Assembly (NCBI RefSeq): GCF_000382365.1 | Contig: NZ_KB908215.1 | Span: 186,001 to 250,000 of the forward strand | Direction: 5' to 3' | DNA from: Pannonibacter phragmitetus DSM 14782 | Lineage (GTDB): Bacteria > Pseudomonadota > Alphaproteobacteria > Rhizobiales > Stappiaceae | DNA length: 64,000 bases | The notes under the pieces: generated by a model | What the model saw: the letters and a program-made list of their open reading frames with translations, nothing else | Databases searched by the model: none | What the model was told of the DNA's origin: nothing | Position numbers and translations under genes: made by a program | In this document: one piece after another, positions 9,718 through 21,293 of the stretch | Position numbering within the stretch: the first letter of the stretch is position 1 | Layout: each line of letters opens with the position of its first letter

Positions 9718-11493
9718 ATGCGCCCGCACTTCAGTTCCAAGCTCTTTTCAAAGCCTCACAAGCCTGAGGCGGCGAATGAACTCGTGCAGAACAGGCAAGT
9801 TGACATCCCTGCCGACACACAAGAAGACCGGGACGAAGCCCTCCACCGGATCGGTAACGCAATCGATATGATAGAAACGGACCTGCGCAGAGCCACTGCA
9901 CAGGTCTCGGCAGAGACGGAAGACCTGAGAAATCTTCTGTCCTCGCAGCAGGATACGCTGAAGACGATACGTGTGGACGCACTAGACCTGCAATCGGAAG
10001 CAGGTAAGGCGACAGGTACGATGTCGGAACTTGCCGCCTCCATCGAAGAACTGGCGGGATCCAGCGGCCAGATTGGTGCACTGGTCGAACGTTCGGGCCA
10101 GCTGGCGCAGGACGCCACCGGCGCCGCGACCGAGGCCAATTCCGGGGTTCTGGAACTGACGGCAGCGATCTCGGATATTGCCAATGTTGTCCGGCTGATT
10201 TCAGGCATTGCCAAGCAGACCAACCTTCTGGCGCTGAATGCCACCATCGAAGCGGCCCGCGCCGGAGACGCCGGACGGGGCTTCGCGGTTGTCGCCAGCG
10301 AAGTGAAGGCGCTTTCCGTGGAAACGCAGAAAGCAACGGAAGAAATCGTCAGCAAGATCGAACGGCTTCAGGCCTCGGCGGATCTGAGCACCACATCGGT
10401 CAGCCGCATCATAGACGCCGTCGCCGAACTGCGGCCAAGTTTTGCAGAAGTTGAGAATGCGATCCGCGAACAGGTGGCAACCACCTCTGACATCAGCCAG
10501 AGAGCCAACCAGACGGCTGCCTTCATCGATGAAGTGGGCAAGCGCATCAGCACCATCAACGACTCCGTCTCCCGCGCCGAAGAAAGCGGAACCAGCGTCC
10601 ACGGCGCTGTCGGCAAGATGGCCGCTTCGGTTTCGGCGCTCGGGCCACGCTTCACGATGATGCTGCGCCAGAGCCCGGCCGGCGACCGCCGGGTCGAAGA
10701 CCGCCTGCCCTGCCGGATCAACGGGACACTTGCCCTGGCAGGACAAACCGCCGCCGTCGAGGCGCGCGACATCTCCCATGCAGGTGTCCTGCTCAAGACG
10801 GGCAACGGCCCGCACATTGCCGCCCCTGCCAGCGCCCGGCTTTCGCTTGACGGTGTTGGCCAGATTGATCTGCGGATCGTCAACAGAAGTGACAATGGCC
10901 TGCATTGCCAGTTCTCCCGTATGGACGACATGACGGGTGCAGCCCTCGACAAGCTCATCCACGGCATTCAGGCAAGGAATGCCACGGCGGTCAACCGGGC
11001 TCAGGAGGGAGCGGCCAGGATCAGCGAGGCGATGCAAAAGCTCGTCGACAATGGCCGCCTCACGCGGGACGCCTTGTTCGACACCGATTACAAAATCATA
11101 CAAGGCTCCAATCCGGTCCAGTACAGCAACCGCGCGCTGGCACAGCTGGAGCAGATCCTGCCGCAGATCCAGGACGCCATCCTCGCGCAAGATACGGCGA
11201 TGACATTCTGTGTGGCGATTGACCGTAACGGCTACCTGCCGGTGCACAATAAAGCCTACTCACATCCGCAGCGGCCGGATGATCCGGTCTGGAATGCGGC
11301 GAACTGCCGGAACAAGCGCATTTTTGATGACAGGGCGGGTCTGAGCGCAGCACGCAACACAAGGCCCGTACTTGTACAGTCTTATGCACGTGATATGGGA
11401 AATGGTAACGTCGTATGGTTGCAGGAAGTCGATGCACCCATAACGGTGTGCGGTATCCACTGGGGCGGTTTCAGGACGGCTTACAGGCTTTGA
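9718..11493 (+). CDS. Soluble methyl-accepting chemotaxis protein with PilZ domain
   Basis: A 591-residue cytoplasmic chemoreceptor with no membrane helices. The MCP signalling domain comes first, with the kinase-control tip [20 protein letters not shown] at about residues 164-183. A PilZ-like domain at about 320-415 follows, with the c-di-GMP motif pair RRVEDR and DISHAGVLL (RxxxR and DxSxxG). The C-terminal 170 residues resemble the sensor domain at the end of some rhizobial cytoplasmic MCPs: [20 protein letters not shown], then a [10 protein letters not shown] and HWGGFRTAY stretch. ATG at 9718 is chosen over an upstream in-frame start. It should link c-di-GMP level to chemotaxis output. 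It lies between rpiA (divergent) and gph. Confidence 0.85.
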
Positions 11494-12688: not shown

Positions 12689-14050
12689 ATGCTACACAGC
12701 AATGAGGAAATGAGAGGCCGCCTGAGCTTCGCAAGGATTGACGCGGAGACGAAGTCGACACTTACGGAACTCTGGCCTTTCGTCCAGAAGGCGCTGCCCG
12801 CAGTGCTTGACGGCTTTTATTCCCACGTGAGGTCACAACCGAAGATGGCGGCTCTTGTCGGCAATCGCGAGGACATGCTCAAGAAGGCCCAGGGCGGACA
12901 CTGGGCCAAGCTGTTCTCCGGCCGGTTTGACCGGGATTACTTCGAGAGCATAGACCGCATTGGCCGGGCCCATGTGCGCATCGGGCTGGAACCGAAGTGG
13001 TATATCGCTGGCTACCAGTATGTCCTGAACGAGCTGGTCAGCATTATCCTCAAGAAGCACCGCTTCTCCCAGCGCAAGGCGCTGACTGCCATGCAGGCGC
13101 TCAACAAGGCAGTGCTGTTCGACCTGGATCTTGCCATCTCGACCTATCAGGACGTGCTGCTGGAGTTGCAACAGGAACAGGAGAGGCAGATCAGCCACGC
13201 CATAGACTCATTCAAGCTCAAGGTGGACGCCTCCATGGCGGAGGTGGGCAACAGCGCCGAAAAGGTCACACGCCAGGCCATCTCCCTCTCGGACATGTCC
13301 GTATCTGCAACGGCTGAAGCTTCCGAAGCTGCACATTCTTCCGTTCAGACGACAAACAACATCCAGACAATCGCGGCCGCGACGGAGGAGCTGTCCAGCT
13401 CCATCGCCGAGATTTCGCGCCAGATCACCGGTGCCTCGGATGTGGCACGCCGGGCGAATGGGGAGACGAACCGGACATCTGCCGAAGTCGGGCGCCTGTC
13501 GGATTCGGCCCAGAAGATCGGTGACGTCATCAGCCTTATCCAGGCGATCGCAGAGCAGACCAATCTCCTCGCCCTCAATGCCACCATCGAGGCAGCCCGT
13601 GCAGGCGAAGCTGGGCGCGGATTTGCCGTCGTGGCAGCCGAAGTGAAGGAACTGGCGAACCAGACATCCAAGGCAACGGAGGAGATTTCGTCCCAGATCT
13701 CCGCCATCCAGTCGGCCACCCAGAACGCCGTGAAGTCGATCAATGCGATTTCCGACACTGTGAAGGAAGTCGACAACATGACCGCCACCATCGCGGCGGC
13801 CGTGGAAGAACAGGGCGCAGCAACGCGCGAGATCTCGTCGAACATCCAGAGCGCGGCCTCCGGTTCCCAGTCTCTGGCCGGAAACGTTGACCGTGTGGCC
13901 GGGGCCATTGCCCAGACGGGCACCGCAGCTGCAGATTTCCAGGTTGCGGCCGATGGGCTCAAGAGTTGCTCGGCGCAGATCGGGAACGATGTGCGCGACT
14001 TCTTCCAGAACCTGCAAAAGATTGCAGCCGCAGCCATCAAGGCAGCCTGA
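12689..14050 (+). CDS. Globin-coupled (HemAT-like) aerotaxis chemoreceptor
   Basis: A 453-residue soluble chemoreceptor. Residues 1-170 form a protoglobin/globin-coupled sensor domain: [20 protein letters not shown], then [20 protein letters not shown], then the proximal-His helix [20 protein letters not shown]. The C-terminal MCP domain has the tip [20 protein letters not shown] at about 288-307 and [16 protein letters not shown] after it. It should bind heme, sense oxygen or another gas ligand, and control CheA. ATG at 12689 has GGGGAG upstream; an in-frame upstream start has none. It ends with a strong terminator. Confidence 0.9.
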
Positions 14051-14234: not shown

Positions 14235-16097
14235 ATGAGCTTCAAGCCGGCGAACGCCGCCAATACGATACTCGATACGATGCGCAAGGCCGTCGCCCTG
14301 CAGCAGGCCGGTGAAATCGAGAAAGCGCAGCGGCTCTACAAGACCGTTCTGAAGAAAAATCCGTCCTCTCCGGATGCCAATCACCTTCTTGGTGTCTGCT
14401 ACCGGCAGCTGGGTTTTCCCAAGCGGGCTGTTGAGTTCATCGGCAAGGCAATCTCCCTCGCCCCCGACCGCGCGCCCTACCATGCCAATCTGGCACGCGC
14501 GCTCTCTGACCTTAATGAAGAAAACCATGCCGCTGTGCTGGCGGCAGCCGAACGGGCAGTCGCACTGGACCCCAGACTAGCCGAAGCGCAAAGCCTGCGC
14601 GCCGTGGCCATGACCAAACTGGACCGGGAGACAGAGGCAGAGGAGATCTTCAAGCAGATCATAGCCGACCACCCGAATTATGGCGACGCCTACCGGAATT
14701 ATGGGGTGCTGCTGCGGGATCAGAAGCGGCACACAGAAGCCGTTGATTTCTTCGACAAGGCGGTTCAGTTCGCTCCCGAAAATCCGGATGTCTGGCTGCA
14801 GCGTGCCCGTTCCCGCATGTCTGCCGAGCAGCTCGAGATTTCCCGCGACGAACTGCAGGACGCAGTCGGCAGATTCCCCGGCAATCACGATCTCAAGCAC
14901 GAAATGGCCCGCGTGCTTTTTGCGCTTGGGGAGCCTGTGGAGGCGCTTCCTTTTGCGGAAGCGGCCGCTTCGGTCCCACACGAACCTCCCGTCGACGTGA
15001 CGCTCGCGATCATTTTGCTGAGACTGGACCGGGCCCAGGAGGGAATTCAGCTTTTGGAGAAGGCCCTGGCGAAAAGCAACGGCAACCAGCCCAATATCGA
15101 ATGGAATCTGGCTCTCGCCTATCTCGGTGCGGGCGACCTGCAAAATGGCTGGAAACACTACGGCGCACGTTTCAGGGCCAATATCGCGTCATGCCTCAAC
15201 CGGAAATTCAACAAGCCTGAATGGGATGGCTCAGATCTGACTGGCAAGACAATCATGATCTGGAATGACCAGGGCGTTGGCGATTGCCTTCGCTACGGAA
15301 TGTTGATCCAAGACATCATGGACGTGGCGGGCAAGGTGATCATCGAACTGCCCCAAAAACTGCTGGCGCCTTTCAGTCTCAGTTTCCCGGATGCCGTCAC
15401 ACGCACGCCCACATTTGAAACGCCAGGACTGACTTCGACTTCGGACGACTACGACTTTCAGATTTCCTCAGCCGACCTTCCGCGGCATCTCCGTCCGGAC
15501 CTGCCGTCATTCCAGAAGACCCGGCATCCCGTGTTCAAGGTAAACCTCGAACGCTCAAGGGAGCTCTACGGCAGAATTCCTGATGCTGACAGCAAGCCTG
15601 TCGTTGGTGTTTCCTGGCGCTCCAGCCGGCTCGCCCCTGCCCGTTCAAAGAACTACCTGTCGGTCATGGATTTTGCACCGATTGTGGAGGTCAAAGACAT
15701 CGTCTTCGTCAATCTGCAGTATACATATCTTGAGCGTGAAATCATCTATTTGCAGCAAGGGCGGGGAGCAAATCTCATCCCCTTCAGTGATATTGATCAG
15801 ATGAACAACATTGAAGACGCGGCAGCGCTCGCAAATTGCTGCGACCTTATCATTACTGCAGCCACAAGTGTCGCTGATATTGCCGGTTGTCATGGCCTTC
15901 CATTCTGGACATTTGGCGAAAACATCAACCACTATCTTTTCGGCAAAGAAGAAAGCCCATGGTATAAGGATACGACCTACACAAGACTTGCCCCGGGTCA
16001 GGCTGTCGCCGAATTGATCCCCGGCTTTGTGTCAAGGCTGGAGAGTTGGAAATCAACATTCTCTCCGGAAGCGCGCATGCTGCGCCTTCAGAAGTGA
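14235..16097 (+). CDS. TPR-glycosyltransferase, FlmG-like
   Basis: A 620-residue protein with two parts. The first 270 residues are tandem tetratricopeptide repeats (ALQQAGEIEKAQRLYKTVLK, then LGVCYRQLGFPKRAVEFIGK, then NYGVLLRDQKRHTEAVDFFD). The C-terminal part from about 330 has a glycosyltransferase B-like fold: MIWNDQGVGDCLRYGMLIQD, GVSWRSSRLAPARSKNY, and a final segment DLIITAATSVADIAGCHGLP. This architecture is that of FlmG, the flagellin glycosyltransferase of Caulobacter, whose TPR part binds flagellin and whose GT part transfers a nonulosonic acid. The neuA/B/C-type genes directly downstream fit that role. The start at 14235 is preferred to an upstream TTG. GC falls towards the 3' end. 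Confidence 0.75.
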   Translation: MSFKPANAANTILDTMRKAVALQQAGEIEKAQRLYKTVLKKNPSSPDANHLLGVCYRQLGFPKRAVEFIGKAISLAPDRAPYHANLARALSDLNEENHAAVLAAAERAVALDPRLAEAQSLRAVAMTKLDRETEAEEIFKQIIADHPNYGDAYRNYGVLLRDQKRHTEAVDFFDKAVQFAPENPDVWLQRARSRMSAEQLEISRDELQDAVGRFPGNHDLKHEMARVLFALGEPVEALPFAEAAASVPHEPPVDVTLAIILLRLDRAQEGIQLLEKALAKSNGNQPNIEWNLALAYLGAGDLQNGWKHYGARFRANIASCLNRKFNKPEWDGSDLTGKTIMIWNDQGVGDCLRYGMLIQDIMDVAGKVIIELPQKLLAPFSLSFPDAVTRTPTFETPGLTSTSDDYDFQISSADLPRHLRPDLPSFQKTRHPVFKVNLERSRELYGRIPDADSKPVVGVSWRSSRLAPARSKNYLSVMDFAPIVEVKDIVFVNLQYTYLEREIIYLQQGRGANLIPFSDIDQMNNIEDAAALANCCDLIITAATSVADIAGCHGLPFWTFGENINHYLFGKEESPWYKDTTYTRLAPGQAVAELIPGFVSRLESWKSTFSPEARMLRLQK

Positions 16098-16103
16098 GAT
16101 GCC

Positions 16104-16784
16104 ATGACAACTGCGGCGCAGGTCACAGCCATCATTCCAGCAAGGGACGGGTCCAAGGGACTTCCGGGTAAGAACGTCCGGCTTCTGGCAGGCAAACCGC
16201 TTTACATGCACAGCGTGGATGCTGCCCTTGCAGCCGGCATTGGCCGGATCATCATCAGCACAGACATTGATGAGATCTTCACTCACCCCCTGCCCCCCGG
16301 GGTAGAGTGCGTGCGGCGCCCGCCTGAACTGGCACAGGACAGCACGGTAATGGCAGAAGTGCTACAAGACCTGCTGCCTCGAACGGGAGTGACCTCAGGC
16401 ATTGCGGTTCTGCTGCAACCTACATCGCCGCTGCGAAGGGCCGAGACCGTGCGCAACGGCATCGGTCTTTTCAGGAAGGGCGGTGCGAGCTTGGTCATGA
16501 GTGTGTCGCCCGCGGATTCTGCGGTTCTGAAATGGGGCTTTGCCGATGGTGACCGTTTTGTGCCTCTGGTCTCACCGGACTTCTGTTTCGCGAACCGCCA
16601 GAGCCTGCCTACCCTGATACGCCCGAATGGCGTTCTTTATGTTTTTGATGCTGCGCAGTTCATGGCTGACGGCAACTTTTCCGCTGAATCGATCCGTGTA
16701 TTGCCGGTCCAGGCAGACGAGGCTCAGGACATTGATACGGCTGAAGACTTTCTGCGCTGCGCAGATCTGATGGCGAAGGGATAA
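16104..16784 (+). CDS. CMP-nonulosonic acid cytidylyltransferase (NeuA-type)
   Basis: A 226-residue nucleotidyltransferase that should activate a nonulosonic (sialic-acid-like) sugar as its CMP derivative. It opens with the cytidylyltransferase signature IIPARDGSKGLPGKNV, followed by ISTDIDEI, RRPPELAQD and VLLQPTSPLR, the usual NeuA/LegF/PseF landmarks. The C-terminal EAQDIDTAEDFLRC stretch is also typical. It starts 6 bp after the FlmG-like gene and is followed by neuB 5 bp later, so this is one operon. The exact sugar (Neu5Ac, legionaminic or other) cannot be read from the sequence. Confidence 0.85.
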   Translation: MTTAAQVTAIIPARDGSKGLPGKNVRLLAGKPLYMHSVDAALAAGIGRIIISTDIDEIFTHPLPPGVECVRRPPELAQDSTVMAEVLQDLLPRTGVTSGIAVLLQPTSPLRRAETVRNGIGLFRKGGASLVMSVSPADSAVLKWGFADGDRFVPLVSPDFCFANRQSLPTLIRPNGVLYVFDAAQFMADGNFSAESIRVLPVQADEAQDIDTAEDFLRCADLMAKG

Positions 16785-16789
16785 CTGAC

Positions 16790-17827
16790 GTGAAAATCGC
16801 CCATAGAGAGATCGGCACCTCCCATCCGCCGCTGGTGATCGCCGAAATCGGCATCAATCACGGCGGCAGCCTGGATGTTGCCAAGGCCATGGTGCGTGCC
16901 GCAGCCCAGAGCGGCTGCGAGATGATCAAGCACCAGACGCATATCGTCGAAGACGAAATGACGGATGAAGCCAGGGAAATCTTTCCACCAAACGCCGATG
17001 TCTCCATCTTCGAGGTGATGCGCCGCTGCGCCCTGCCGCTGGAAGCGGAGAAAGAACTCAAGGCCTATACCGAAAGCCTCGGTCTCATCTACATCTCCAC
17101 GCCCTTCTCGCGTACTGCTGCCGACTTCCTGAACTCCATCGATGTGCCCGGCTTCAAGATCGGCAGCGGTGAATGCGATCACCTGCCGCTGATCCGGCAT
17201 ATCGCCGGTTTCGGCAAGCCGGTGATCATGAGCACGGGCATGCAGACGCTGGAGAGCATCCGCCCGTCGGTCGAGATCCTCGACAAGGCCGGCATTGGCT
17301 ACGCCTTGCTGGAATGCACGAACCTCTATCCCTCCCCGCCCGAGATCGTCTCCCTGCGCGGCGTGACGGATCTGCAGGCGGCGTTTCCCAATGCAGTTGT
17401 CGGCTTCTCCGATCACAGCATCGGTCCGGAGATGGCTCTGGCATCCGTGGCACTCGGTGCCTGCATTCTGGAGCGGCATTTTACGGATACACGCTACCGC
17501 AAGGGGCCGGATATTTCCTGTTCCATGGACCCGTCCGAACTGCGGTTTCTGATCGAGCGCTCCCGGGAGATCCATATTGCGCTTCACAACGAGAAGAAAC
17601 GAACGGCACCGGAAGAAGATGTCTACCGCTTCGCCCGCGGATCCGTTGTGGCCGACAGGGATCTGCCGGAAGGTCATGTGATCACCGAAGCCGATATCTG
17701 GGCGCGGCGTCCGGGCAATGGCGAGATACCAGTCTCCTGCTTTGACGAGGTTACCGGGCGCAGACTGAAGCTGGCCGTGAAGCGCAATCAGCAACTGCGC
17801 TGGAGCGATCTGGAGCCTCGCCAATGA
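16790..17827 (+). CDS. Nonulosonic acid synthase (NeuB-type)
   Basis: It condenses an N-acylated mannosamine-type sugar with phosphoenolpyruvate to give a nonulosonic acid such as N-acetylneuraminate. The 345-residue protein has the NeuB TIM barrel: VIAEIGINHGGSLDVAKAMV, YISTPFSRTAADFL, FKIGSGECDHLPLI and VIMSTGMQTL, then FSDHSIGPEMAL and LERHFTDTRYRKGPD. A C-terminal SAF/antifreeze-like domain follows (DLPEGHVITEADIWARRPG). It starts with GTG at 16790 and its stop overlaps the next gene by four bases. SAF-bearing NeuB, LegI and PseI look alike, so the product sugar is uncertain. Confidence 0.88.
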   Translation: MKIAHREIGTSHPPLVIAEIGINHGGSLDVAKAMVRAAAQSGCEMIKHQTHIVEDEMTDEAREIFPPNADVSIFEVMRRCALPLEAEKELKAYTESLGLIYISTPFSRTAADFLNSIDVPGFKIGSGECDHLPLIRHIAGFGKPVIMSTGMQTLESIRPSVEILDKAGIGYALLECTNLYPSPPEIVSLRGVTDLQAAFPNAVVGFSDHSIGPEMALASVALGACILERHFTDTRYRKGPDISCSMDPSELRFLIERSREIHIALHNEKKRTAPEEDVYRFARGSVVADRDLPEGHVITEADIWARRPGNGEIPVSCFDEVTGRRLKLAVKRNQQLRWSDLEPRQ

Positions 17828-18948
17828 CTGCCCGGCGGCTCCTGTTCCTGACCGGCACCCGGGCCGATTTTGGCAAGCTGGAGCCCCTTGCCATCGCAGC
17901 CAGAGATGCCGGCCACGAGGTGACTTTCTTCGTCACCGGCATGCATATGCTGGAAAAATACGGCCTCACCCGCAATGAAGTGCAGCGGCTTCCCGGAGTG
18001 GTGAAGCACGAATTCATCAATCAGCGTCAAGGCGACCCGCAGGACATCATCCTGTCCAAGACAATCCTGGGTCTCTCGGACTGGGTTCACGAGAACCGGC
18101 CGGATCTGACCATTGTGCATGGTGACCGGATCGAGGCCCTCGCCGGGGCGCTGGTTTGCGCGACGAACTATATCCGCTGCGCGCATATCGAAGGGGGAGA
18201 AGTGTCAGGTACGATCGATGAGGTCTACCGCCACTGCAACACCAAGCTCTGCACCTATCACTTTGTCAGTTCGGAGGCAGCAAAAGCACGTGTCCTGACG
18301 CTTGGGGAAGAGCCGGAGACGGTCTTCAACATCGGCTCTCCGGAGTTGGACTTCCATGGCGGACCATCCGGCGTCACTCTTGATGAAGTCCGCAATCATT
18401 ACGCAATTCCCTTCAAGGATTACGGGATTGCCGTATTTCATCCGGTGACATCGGAGCGGGACACGATCGGCGCGCAGGCTCACAGCCTGTTCTCTGCTCT
18501 CTCCGCGAGCGGCCGGAGTTTTATCGTCATTTCCCCGAACAATGATCCTGGCTCCGAGGATATTTTTGCAGAGATTGAGAAGCTGGATCCGGCACGCTTC
18601 CGGCATCTGCCTAACATGCGCTTTGCCTATTTTTCAGAGCTTATGAAGAACGCGGCTGCCATCATTGGCAACTCCAGTGCAGGCGTGCGCGAAGCGCCCT
18701 TCCTTGGCATCCCGAGTCTCAATCTCGGAACCCGGCAACTCCACAGGTCGGTGGCGCCATCCATCACGGAAACCTCAGCCTTCGACCGTGATGCGATAGC
18801 GGATTTCCTGACAAATAGATGGGGCCAGCGCTTTGCCTCTGACAGAAGTTTTGGACAGGGCAATTCTGCCGCACGTTTCGCCGGGATCCTCAATACCGAT
18901 GGTTTCTGGAGCGCTCCGCTGCAGAAGCACTTCTACAGCGCAGAGTGA
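17824..18948 (+). CDS. UDP-GlcNAc 2-epimerase (hydrolysing), NeuC-type
   Basis: A 374-residue GT-B-fold enzyme expected to convert a UDP-N-acetylglucosamine-type substrate to the free mannosamine-type sugar used by the NeuB enzyme. It opens with FLTGTRADFGKLEPLAIAA and continues with the NeuC/WecB landmarks VHGDRIEALAGALV, RCAHIEGGEVSGTIDE, IGSPELD and, near the C-terminus, NSSAGVREAPFLGIPSLNLG. The start overlaps neuB by ATGA, giving tight translational coupling. With neuA and neuB it forms a minimal three-enzyme route from a UDP-sugar to a CMP-nonulosonic acid. LegG of the legionaminic pathway would look the same. Confidence 0.87.
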   Translation: MTARRLLFLTGTRADFGKLEPLAIAARDAGHEVTFFVTGMHMLEKYGLTRNEVQRLPGVVKHEFINQRQGDPQDIILSKTILGLSDWVHENRPDLTIVHGDRIEALAGALVCATNYIRCAHIEGGEVSGTIDEVYRHCNTKLCTYHFVSSEAAKARVLTLGEEPETVFNIGSPELDFHGGPSGVTLDEVRNHYAIPFKDYGIAVFHPVTSERDTIGAQAHSLFSALSASGRSFIVISPNNDPGSEDIFAEIEKLDPARFRHLPNMRFAYFSELMKNAAAIIGNSSAGVREAPFLGIPSLNLGTRQLHRSVAPSITETSAFDRDAIADFLTNRWGQRFASDRSFGQGNSAARFAGILNTDGFWSAPLQKHFYSAE

Positions 18949-19037: not shown

Positions 19038-19067
19038 CGCCGCTCACGGCACCGACAGGCGGCGTTT
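19038..19067 (+). terminator. Possible weak terminator after glycan operon
   Basis: Six-base arms CGCCGC (19038-19043) and GCGGCG (19059-19064) with a 15-nt loop are followed by TTT. It sits between the neuC-type gene and the convergent methyltransferase gene and could serve both, but the stem is short. Confidence 0.3.
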
Positions 19068-20104
19068 CACTTGATGAGCTCCACATAGAAGCTGAAATGC
19101 GGGGCTGTCGTGTCGAAAACGCAGGTGTTTCTGAACGGCGCTGCGACCGAGGCCCCCTGATAGCATGGGATGACAAACCGGAACCCCAGTTCCGGGGCAA
19201 GCGATACCAGACTTTCATATGACCAGAATGAAATGTGCCTTTCGGGGTTTGCACCTGAAAAGCTGACATCCACTCCCCTTTCGACGGATACCCTGTAAAA
19301 CTCTGCTGCCTCGAAGTTGACGTCCTTCGCCAGCTTGCTTGCTTCAGCAATATTCAGGGCATCGCCCGCCACAGGAATAATGTGCGGGACGGCATCTTTC
19401 AGAAGGTCCTCTTTCCATTGCTCAGGAGCATTTTCTTGTAAATCCATCAACCGGAGGATCCGGAAATCATTCGTCGTGTTGGGAAGAGCAAGACGCATGA
19501 CGCCGCCCTTCTTGAGTATCCTGGCGCATTCCCTCAGGAATCCAAGTGCACCGTCAGTTTCCAGATGCTCAAGAGTGTGTGAGCAGTAAATCAATGAAAC
19601 GGATTCATTTTCCTCAGGGACAGTCAGTCCCGGAGTGCACAGATCAATCCCGTGAAAATCAACCCCATCCTCTCCTTGAATGGCCTTATAGTAAGAGGAC
19701 TGACCGGGATAGTCATAGTTTTTCCAGCGCCGGTGATGGAAAGCCCCTGAGCCAAAATTGCAGAAAATCTCATCGGCACTATAGTTTCGGTAGAGCATAG
19801 CATCGGAACGGGAAGAATATAGCGTAAATGAATTATCATACCGATTGAGCAACGCGCCAATTCCGAACCTGTAAAGGAATTTATTCACAAACCGGGAAAA
19901 CTTCGCAAGAAAGGTCGAACGGCTGGCGCGCTTCGTAAACAATCTGAGAGCAGGAATATAATTATTCCGCTGGGATGGAAACATCGAGATCCGCGTACTC
20001 AGACTTCCATCGTTTTGAGATTCAGGTGAGAGCATGGCAGAATCCCGCAATATCATTTTGAGATCTAGCCTTACATTCAGAATTCTTAAGATCACATTAT
20101 CCAT
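19067..20104 (-). CDS. SAM-dependent methyltransferase (class I-like)
   Basis: A 345-residue protein of unknown substrate. The middle holds a methyltransferase core: FCNFGSGAFHHRRWKNYD, then DFHGIDLCTPGLTVPEENES, SLIYCSHTLEHLETDGALGF and LRECARILKKGGVMRLALPN. This pattern (SHTLEHL followed by ILKKGG) is common in methyltransferases of surface-glycan loci. The gene is markedly AT-richer than its neighbours and lies convergently beside the nonulosonic acid operon, both suggesting a transferred glycan-modification gene. The start is uncertain: the ATG at 20104 and one at 20056 are both possible and neither has a good ribosome-binding site. Confidence 0.7.
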   Translation of the reverse strand: MDNVILRILNVRLDLKMILRDSAMLSPESQNDGSLSTRISMFPSQRNNYIPALRLFTKRASRSTFLAKFSRFVNKFLYRFGIGALLNRYDNSFTLYSSRSDAMLYRNYSADEIFCNFGSGAFHHRRWKNYDYPGQSSYYKAIQGEDGVDFHGIDLCTPGLTVPEENESVSLIYCSHTLEHLETDGALGFLRECARILKKGGVMRLALPNTTNDFRILRLMDLQENAPEQWKEDLLKDAVPHIIPVAGDALNIAEASKLAKDVNFEAAEFYRVSVERGVDVSFSGANPERHISFWSYESLVSLAPELGFRFVIPCYQGASVAAPFRNTCVFDTTAPHFSFYVELIK

Positions 20105-20480: not shown

Positions 20481-21293
20481 TCAGCCCACAAACGCCCGTT
20501 CCACGACGAATTCGCCGGGCTTGTTGTTGGCGCCTTCGTTGAGGCCGGCCTTTTCAAGGAGGGCCTTGGTGTCGCGCAGCATTTCCATGGAGCCGCAGAT
20601 CATGCCGCGGTCGATTGCCGGGTCCAGAGGCGGGACGCCGAGGTCGGTGAAGAGCTTGCCGCTCTCGATCAGATCGGTGATGCGGCCCTGGCGCGGGAAG
20701 TCCTCGCGGGTGACGGAGGTGTAGTGCACCAGCTTCTCGCTGGCGAGTTCGCCGATCAGCGGATCGTTCTTCGTGGCCTCGACCAGCTCCTCGCCATAGC
20801 GCAGTTCTGCGACTTCACGGCAGGTGTGGGTCAGGATGACCTGGTCGAACTTCTCGTAGGTCTCCGGATCACGGATCAGGCTGGCGAAGGGCGCAATGCC
20901 GGTGCCGGTGGAGAACATGTAGACGCGCTTTCCCGGCGTCAGGGCGTCGTTGACCAGCGTGCCGGTCGGCTTCTTCTTCAGAAGCAGGGCATCGCCCGGC
21001 TGGATCTTCTGCAGATGCTGGGTCAGCGGGCCATCCGGCACCTTGATGGAGAAGAACTCCAGTTCCTCATCCCAGGACGGGCTGGCGATGGAATAGGCGC
21101 GGTACAGCGGCTTGCCGTCGATCAGCAGGCCGATCATCACGAATTCGCCGGAGCGGAAACGGAATGCAGCAGGCCGCGTGGTGCGGAACTTGAACAGGCG
21201 GTCGGTGTAATGCTTAACCTCCGTCACTTCCTGCACGAAGGCGCTCGGGCCTGCGACAGCTTCCAGGTCGGCGGGTTTGGCAAGAACGTTCAT
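20481..21293 (-). CDS. fpr: Ferredoxin-NADP+ reductase
   Basis: A 270-residue cytoplasmic flavoenzyme that moves electrons between NADPH and ferredoxin or flavodoxin; in bacteria this family often serves oxidative-stress and Fe-S metabolism. Visible elements are the FAD motif RAYSIASPSWDEELEFFSIK, the NADP-binding FSTGTGIAPFASLI and VILTHTCREVAEL, and a C-terminal VERAFVG that ends like the bacterial subclass. The start at 21293 (MNVLAKPADL) gives a normal length. It is divergent from a GlxA-type regulator across a 326-bp region carrying a palindromic site. Confidence 0.92.
   Translation of the reverse strand: MNVLAKPADLEAVAGPSAFVQEVTEVKHYTDRLFKFRTTRPAAFRFRSGEFVMIGLLIDGKPLYRAYSIASPSWDEELEFFSIKVPDGPLTQHLQKIQPGDALLLKKKPTGTLVNDALTPGKRVYMFSTGTGIAPFASLIRDPETYEKFDQVILTHTCREVAELRYGEELVEATKNDPLIGELASEKLVHYTSVTREDFPRQGRITDLIESGKLFTDLGVPPLDPAIDRGMICGSMEMLRDTKALLEKAGLNEGANNKPGEFVVERAFVG

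Follow-up and report, generated by a model that had tools for sequence, protein, structure and literature searches.

We describe a four-gene operon of Pannonibacter phragmitetus DSM 14782 that, we believe, may attach a sialic acid to flagellin. It lies in a stretch of 64,000 nucleotides, here the window (NCBI RefSeq assembly GCF_000382365.1, contig NZ_KB908215.1, positions 186,001 to 250,000), and it joins a protein of tetratricopeptide repeats (TPR) and a glycosyltransferase (GT) domain, the TPR-GT, to the enzymes NeuA, NeuB and NeuC. We put the probability that the operon is a self-contained cytoplasmic pathway sialylating flagellin at roughly two in three. Comparison of sequences backs the assignment of the enzymes to their families and to a specificity class, the operon and its conservation in the genus, the orthologues of the TPR-GT in flagellin loci and the slot that the genes occupy. 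We infer the presence of the sugar in the living cell, its use as a donor by the TPR-GT, the O-linkage, a need for motility and any effect on a host.

We propose the following mechanism. NeuC would hydrolyse and epimerise UDP-N-acetylglucosamine (UDP-GlcNAc) to N-acetylmannosamine (ManNAc), NeuB would combine ManNAc with phosphoenolpyruvate to give N-acetylneuraminic acid (Neu5Ac), and NeuA would activate this to CMP-Neu5Ac. The TPR superhelix would bind flagellin in its monomeric form, the likeliest candidates being the four flagellins encoded on contig C5 of the genome, and the TPR-GT would move Neu5Ac onto their serine or threonine residues before export. The Neu5Ac cassette sits in a chromosomal slot where relatives carry other cassettes of the nonulosonic acid (NulO) type. 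We lean, a little less firmly, towards the wider claim that this is natural flagellin glycosylation with true Neu5Ac (or an O-methyl form), which arose when one donor cassette took the place of another at a dedicated, swappable slot beside a conserved TPR-transferase, and which is carried out by a GT9-like protein sialyltransferase.

A four-gene operon

The four genes are an operon. They run in one direction with gaps of 6 and 5 base pairs (bp) and then a 4-bp overlap, and since four other Pannonibacter (Stappiaceae) genomes have them side by side in unchanged order, which makes 5/5 examined, the arrangement is not due to chance. Inspection of the sequence shows a terminator-like hairpin (GGCGGGCCC...GGGCCTGCC) between the TPR-GT gene and the upstream gene for a protoglobin-type methyl-accepting chemotaxis protein (MCP), so the four genes are probably a unit of their own and the protoglobin-MCP gene probably stands outside it. 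A scan for sigma-70 promoters gave matches no commoner than chance. The gene set, frames and spacing are those given in a first-pass annotation of this DNA, and the open reading frames were confirmed. The families that it assigned to the CMP-transferase, NeuB and NeuC agree with profile matches, and for the first two with the best PDB matches as well, and the TPR and GT parts that it saw in one protein are recovered, the first by profile and the second by structure prediction.

The sugar

NeuC scores 339 bits against TIGR03568, above the cut-off of 235.9. For comparison we collected loci of the NeuC family in 398 genomes of the phylum and sorted them according to whether a DegT-type aminotransferase lies in the neighbourhood, since the legionaminic acid (Leg) and pseudaminic acid (Pse) pathways need such an enzyme and the Neu5Ac pathway does not. 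In the NeuC tree the five Pannonibacter proteins and eight loci without a DegT aminotransferase form a clade with 100% support, and all the Leg-context proteins, together with the Acinetobacter baumannii enzyme (5zlr), fall outside it. The active-site motif reads HIEGGEVSGTIDE in the window and is of the HxHGGExxEGxxDE type in most Leg loci. Human GNE, which is a ManNAc-producing enzyme, aligns with HIEGGEVSGTIDD at this place, the same form as in the window.

Profile scores place NeuB with the NeuB/Leg family rather than with PseI: it reaches 345 bits against TIGR03569, below the cut-off of 399.65, and 242.9 bits against the PseI model TIGR03586, where the cut-off of 340.25 is not reached. 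Its best PDB match is the Neu5Ac synthase NeuB of Neisseria meningitidis, to which it is 50% identical. The first-pass annotation had proposed placing NeuB in a tree, and there it falls in a clade with 100% support that holds the meningococcal enzyme (1xuu) and neu loci with no aminotransferase nearby; the Leg-type relatives lie outside. We compared 27 positions within the active site or adjacent to it, among them those of a loop proposed to recognise C4-C6 of the substrate (PMC7371886). The window NeuB has the meningococcal residue at 24 of them, with N74, N184 and F288 among these, and 25 Leg-context NeuBs have it at 11-17. The CMP-synthetase has as its best PDB match the meningococcal CMP-Neu5Ac synthetase 1eyr (101 bits), and its 86 bits against the PseF model are far under the cut-off of 205.7. 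In alignment it keeps Q104, K142, R165, Y179, D209 and D211, which we take to be substrate-binding residues of the meningococcal enzyme. Trees and active sites place both NeuB and NeuC in the Neu-type class.

The rest of the genome agrees with this. It has a single NeuB, and its only full-length DegT aminotransferase scores 198 bits against LegC (cut-off 420) and 235 against PseC (cut-off 423.5). For the Leg pathway, no aminotransferase in the genome scored above the LegC cut-off; LegB was not searched for genome-wide. We rejected a Pse product, with the PseI and PseF models far under their cut-offs and no PseC. A search for the transferase Maf (PF01973, MptE-like/Maf) gave no match in the five Pannonibacter genomes, and the same search matched four archaeal controls and one Roseibium genome. 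The Neu clades, the active-site residues, the single NeuB, the lack of a Maf match and the lack of an aminotransferase at the LegC or PseC level together make N-acetylneuraminate the best-supported product of the operon.

It is very unlikely that the NeuC-like enzyme is instead LegG, acting on UDP-N,N'-diacetylbacillosamine (UDP-diNAcBac), and that the operon makes legionaminic acid for flagellin. The substrate would come from PglF/PglE/PglD-like genes on contig C4, where PglF-, PglC-, PglD- and PglE-like genes share one cluster, so UDP-diNAcBac may exist in the cell, and some bacteria do feed Leg synthesis from it. However, the set keeps company with genes for rhamnose and N-acetylmannosaminuronic acid (ManNAcA) and with those for glycosyltransferases, much like an O-antigen cluster; the DegT aminotransferase is found together with the PglC-, PglD- and PglF-like genes of this lipopolysaccharide (LPS)-type cluster. 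NeuC and NeuB both fall outside all Leg-context sequences, and the three named NeuB residues are those of a Neu5Ac-type enzyme. We rejected LegG on the tree and the active site, despite the Pgl-like genes. The first-pass annotation had found no Pse or other Leg genes, which is true for the window but must be read beside the Pgl-like set elsewhere in the genome. Its view that the enzymes are enough for a sugar of the Neu5Ac type is supported by the two trees, the active-site residues, the NeuC motif and the genome content, and the genome check that it proposed turned up the four C5 flagellins, and in it no aminotransferase reached the cut-off for LegC or for PseC.

A decorated sialic acid such as O-methyl-Neu5Ac, made through an adjacent TylF-type or other methyltransferase, is a possible product, though we consider it doubtful; this variant overlaps with the flagellin sialylation we favor. 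A TylF-family methyltransferase gene directly follows neuC in three other Pannonibacter and stands two genes further on in P. indicus, and methyltransferases occur in several Roseibium cassettes. The window has no TylF gene here. A different methyltransferase stands at that place, which would suit decoration, but it is on the opposite strand and has a foreign base composition. The place after neuC appears as a variable decoration slot in the genus.

The transferase and its acceptor

The TPR-GT is predicted to be built of nine TPRs (about residues 12-313) followed by a C-terminal GT-B, GT9-like domain (about residues 330-606); its AlphaFold model has a mean confidence (pLDDT) of 92.6. The TPR repeats match Pfam, the GT domain gave no Pfam match, and a sequence search of the GT domain against the PDB gave none either. 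The solved structures closest to the whole chain are SPINDLY and OGT. Taken alone, the GT domain matches GT9 heptosyltransferases and TibC with VIA Z scores of 16-19 (19.1 to 3tov). The motif DQGxGD, D345-D350, is invariant, and by analogy with WaaC it would presumably hold the catalytic base.

We infer that flagellin is the acceptor in Pannonibacter from the orthologues in Stappia, which lie within the flagellin locus in the order flgI-flgJ-flgN-flaG-TPR-GT-NulO genes-flagellins, followed by flbT where the contig reaches that far. Whether they stand in the slot or in a flagellin locus, almost all the Stappiaceae orthologues adjoin a NeuB-family gene and a CTP transferase gene. The placement between flaG and the flagellins in Stappia and the lack of a Maf match support the earlier proposal that this is a flagellin glycosylation locus. 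Two sets of flagellar genes are present in the DSM 14782 genome, one on contig C2 (L023) and one on contig C5 (L020). Both have FlbT and FlaF-like genes of their own, and the four long flagellins are found only in the C5 set. Among the titles and abstracts listed by a literature search on Pannonibacter and flagella, none mentions flagellin glycans.

The TPR-GT is FlmG-like by its domains, its length and its linkage to a NeuB-family nonulosonate pathway. In our tree the Caulobacter-type FlmG is represented by a proxy, the FlbT-adjacent TPR-GTs, and not by Caulobacter FlmG itself; we take flmG to lie next to flbT-flaF in Caulobacter, as reference titles also indicate. The FlbT-adjacent proteins form their own clade with 99% support and the Stappiaceae proteins a separate one, also with 99%. 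The approximately unbiased (AU) test does not reject a tree that unites these two exclusively (p = 0.094), nor one that groups the Stappiaceae proteins with a third set of flagellin-locus TPR-GTs (p = 0.56). A single clade of all flagellin-locus TPR-GTs is rejected (p 4e-5), so these proteins are not one lineage. As far as sequence can tell the protein works like FlmG. A placement outside the FlmG clade would have refuted the first-pass annotation, and the tree decides neither this nor descent from Caulobacter FlmG.

Several points weigh against sialylation of flagellin. The Pannonibacter operon is apart from the flagellin genes, which stand on C5 with flgN, flaG, flaF and flbT, and no TPR-GT lies there between flaG and the first flagellin. 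The TPR-GT superfamily is large, with many members away from flagellin loci, and the free tree does not support a grouping with the FlbT-adjacent proxy for FlmG. The neu-only reference loci were assigned by context and not by biochemistry, except for N. meningitidis NeuB. Searches for GT42 and GT52 sialyltransferases gave no match in the genome nor in any control genome and are uninformative on absence, so a competing consumer of CMP-Neu5Ac may exist. The distance from the flagellins, the common paralogues elsewhere and the chemoreceptors among the neighbours would all suit an operon that makes Neu5Ac for another purpose, with a secreted protein, the hook protein or a surface glycan as the acceptor of the TPR-GT, or with most of the Neu5Ac going to LPS or capsule. 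We think this unlikely: the Stappia orthologues are in the flagellin locus, Maf gave no match, and in each of the five Pannonibacter genomes the neu operon begins with the TPR-GT gene.

A conserved slot with exchanged cassettes

Pannonibacter and Roseibium share one slot, rpiA-MCP-gph-(second MCP)-TPR-GT-cassette-ferredoxin reductase-like gene-transcription regulator, in which the gene names were assigned from sequence. The cassette is NeuA/NeuB/NeuC in Pannonibacter. A short NeuB that lacks the SAF domain, together with other genes, makes up the cassette of one Roseibium group and that of Stappia, which stands at the flagellin locus; in another Roseibium group a 607-residue NeuB carries a fused xylose-isomerase-like domain and is accompanied by a GMD-like dehydratase; and R. 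hamelinense has a 765-residue CBS-NeuB-SAF-TIM-barrel protein. The TPR-GT is kept without NulO genes at three loci, with nothing in their place at L110 (9983-12736), one methyltransferase at L150 and one 311-residue gene at L131; these are natural cassette-less sites. The NeuB types of the different cassettes are well separated in the NeuB tree.

The Pannonibacter NeuB and NeuC have their closest relatives in another alphaproteobacterial family and in another class (NeuB is 76-78% identical), unlike the TPR-GT, which follows the Stappiaceae. This is consistent with horizontal gain of the neu genes. Since the slot is fixed and its NulO cassette differs between lineages or is missing, we read the Neu5Ac cassette as an apparent natural exchange of donor, in which Pannonibacter seems to have changed its sugar but kept the transferase. 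Within the MCP slot, comparison across cassette types gives a lower identity for the GT domain than for the TPR domain; inside a single type the GT domain is, for most types, roughly as conserved as the TPR domain or more so. It is suggestive only that the GT domain is less conserved between types, since the pairs compared are not independent and Stappia shows the opposite.

The 607-residue NeuB-family protein of Roseibium (L067, 13991-15814 on the minus strand; L119, L121, L122, L124, L125, L128-L130, L132, L133, L135 and L138) has a NeuB domain, a truncated SAF match and a xylose-isomerase-like TIM barrel. It comes with a CTP transferase and a methyltransferase as well as the dehydratase, and belongs to an apparently undescribed NulO-like pathway. 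SAF-less NeuB synthases of about 290-320 residues are found at L065 (11583-17051), L066, L075-L078, L112-L118 and L139-L141. At L065 the synthase stands beside the TPR-GT with a polysaccharide pyruvyl transferase-like protein, a class IV aminotransferase, a short-chain dehydrogenase/reductase (SDR), a methyltransferase and an SpsF-like CTP transferase. The R. hamelinense fusion (L074, 2932-5229, minus strand), whose TIM barrel is also xylose-isomerase-like, adjoins a TylF-type methyltransferase. Outside the Alphaproteobacteria, TPR-GT genes adjoin LegC-, LegI- and LegG-like genes at L247 (9246-14276), L249 and L153, which suggests that other classes have FlmG-like systems that use legionaminic acid. 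L224 (9268-18843), from another alphaproteobacterium, has near a flagellin gene a NeuB/NeuC-like pair that belongs to neither of the main Neu and Leg clades.

Features of the window

Table 1. The operon and its neighbours, in window coordinates.
Feature	Position	Strand	Remarks
TPR-glycosyltransferase (FlmG-like), putative flagellin nonulosonate transferase	14235..16097	+	620 aa
neuA-like CMP-N-acetylneuraminate synthetase	16104..16784	+	226 aa; CTP_transf_3
neuB, N-acetylneuraminate synthase	16790..17827	+	345 aa; NeuB and SAF; GTG start
neuC, hydrolysing UDP-GlcNAc 2-epimerase	17824..18948	+	374 aa; motif HIEGGEVSGTIDE
Protoglobin-MCP chemoreceptor	12710..14050	+	upstream neighbour
Second MCP, with PilZ	9718..11493		gph-like gene between it and the protoglobin-MCP
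SAM-dependent methyltransferase	19067..20104	-	GC 48.7%, window 62.7%; possible glycan-decorating gene; at the place of the TylF-type gene of four other Pannonibacter
Ferredoxin-NADP reductase-like gene	20481..21293	-	named from sequence; far border of the cassette slot

Two chemoreceptors had been placed immediately upstream of the operon. The protoglobin-MCP does adjoin it, but the other is set apart by the gph-like gene.

Significance

Whether enzymes of the FlmG type can take sialic acid as their donor is a question that the work on FlmG expressly left unanswered (PMC7591256). If our reading is true, the Pannonibacter operon is a natural answer to that question, and it can be tested with four genes. 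The flagellin O-glycans usually reported are pseudaminic or legionaminic acids, and in that literature flagellin carries Neu5Ac only in engineered cells (PMC11339370). The fixed slot of Pannonibacter and Roseibium, with its exchanged NulO cassettes, is a natural series from which to learn how GT domains adjust to a changed donor. A GT9-like sialyltransferase that acts on protein, if true, would be useful in glycoengineering. Sialic acid is a sugar found on animal cells, and a sialylated filament, if true, offers a simple hypothesis for altered innate recognition. Pannonibacter includes clinical isolates and opportunistic human pathogens (PMC5727363, PMC11051880).

Comparison with known systems

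The NeuC, NeuB and NeuA chemistry is like that of the Neu5Ac pathways of N. meningitidis and Escherichia coli K1 (siaA-D/neuDBACES). There the acceptor is capsular polysaccharide and not protein, and the transferase is a polysialyltransferase. Kint, Dubois and Viollier (EMBO J 42:e112880, 2023), in a paper on reprogramming flagellin sialyltransferases, reportedly described FlmG-type transferases with different NulO stereoisomer donors, said to be Pse and Leg, with the specificity in the GT domain. The Maf of Clostridium botulinum, in engineered E. coli supplied with CMP-Neu5Ac, makes clear that transfer of Neu5Ac to flagellin serine or threonine is chemically possible (PMC11339370). That transferase is of an unrelated family, however, its native sugar is a legionaminic acid derivative, and it used Neu5Ac only in the engineered host (PMC11339370).

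The FlmG system of Caulobacter crescentus is also close in design. The TPR domain of FlmG binds flagellins, and FlmG is needed, with pseudaminic acid, for their modification (PMC7591256). The donor genes differ, being those for Pse in Caulobacter (FlmA, FlmB, FlmH, FlmD, NeuB and FlmC) and NeuA/NeuB/NeuC, for Neu5Ac, in Pannonibacter. The Caulobacter genes are dispersed, whereas the four Pannonibacter genes form one operon that is not beside flbT, and the GT domain of the Pannonibacter protein falls in another clade than the FlbT-adjacent proxy for FlmG. The two systems share an N-terminal TPR and C-terminal GT-B protein of about 600 residues, a paired NeuB-family synthase and the lack of Maf (PMC7591256), and probably a cytoplasmic transfer to several flagellins.

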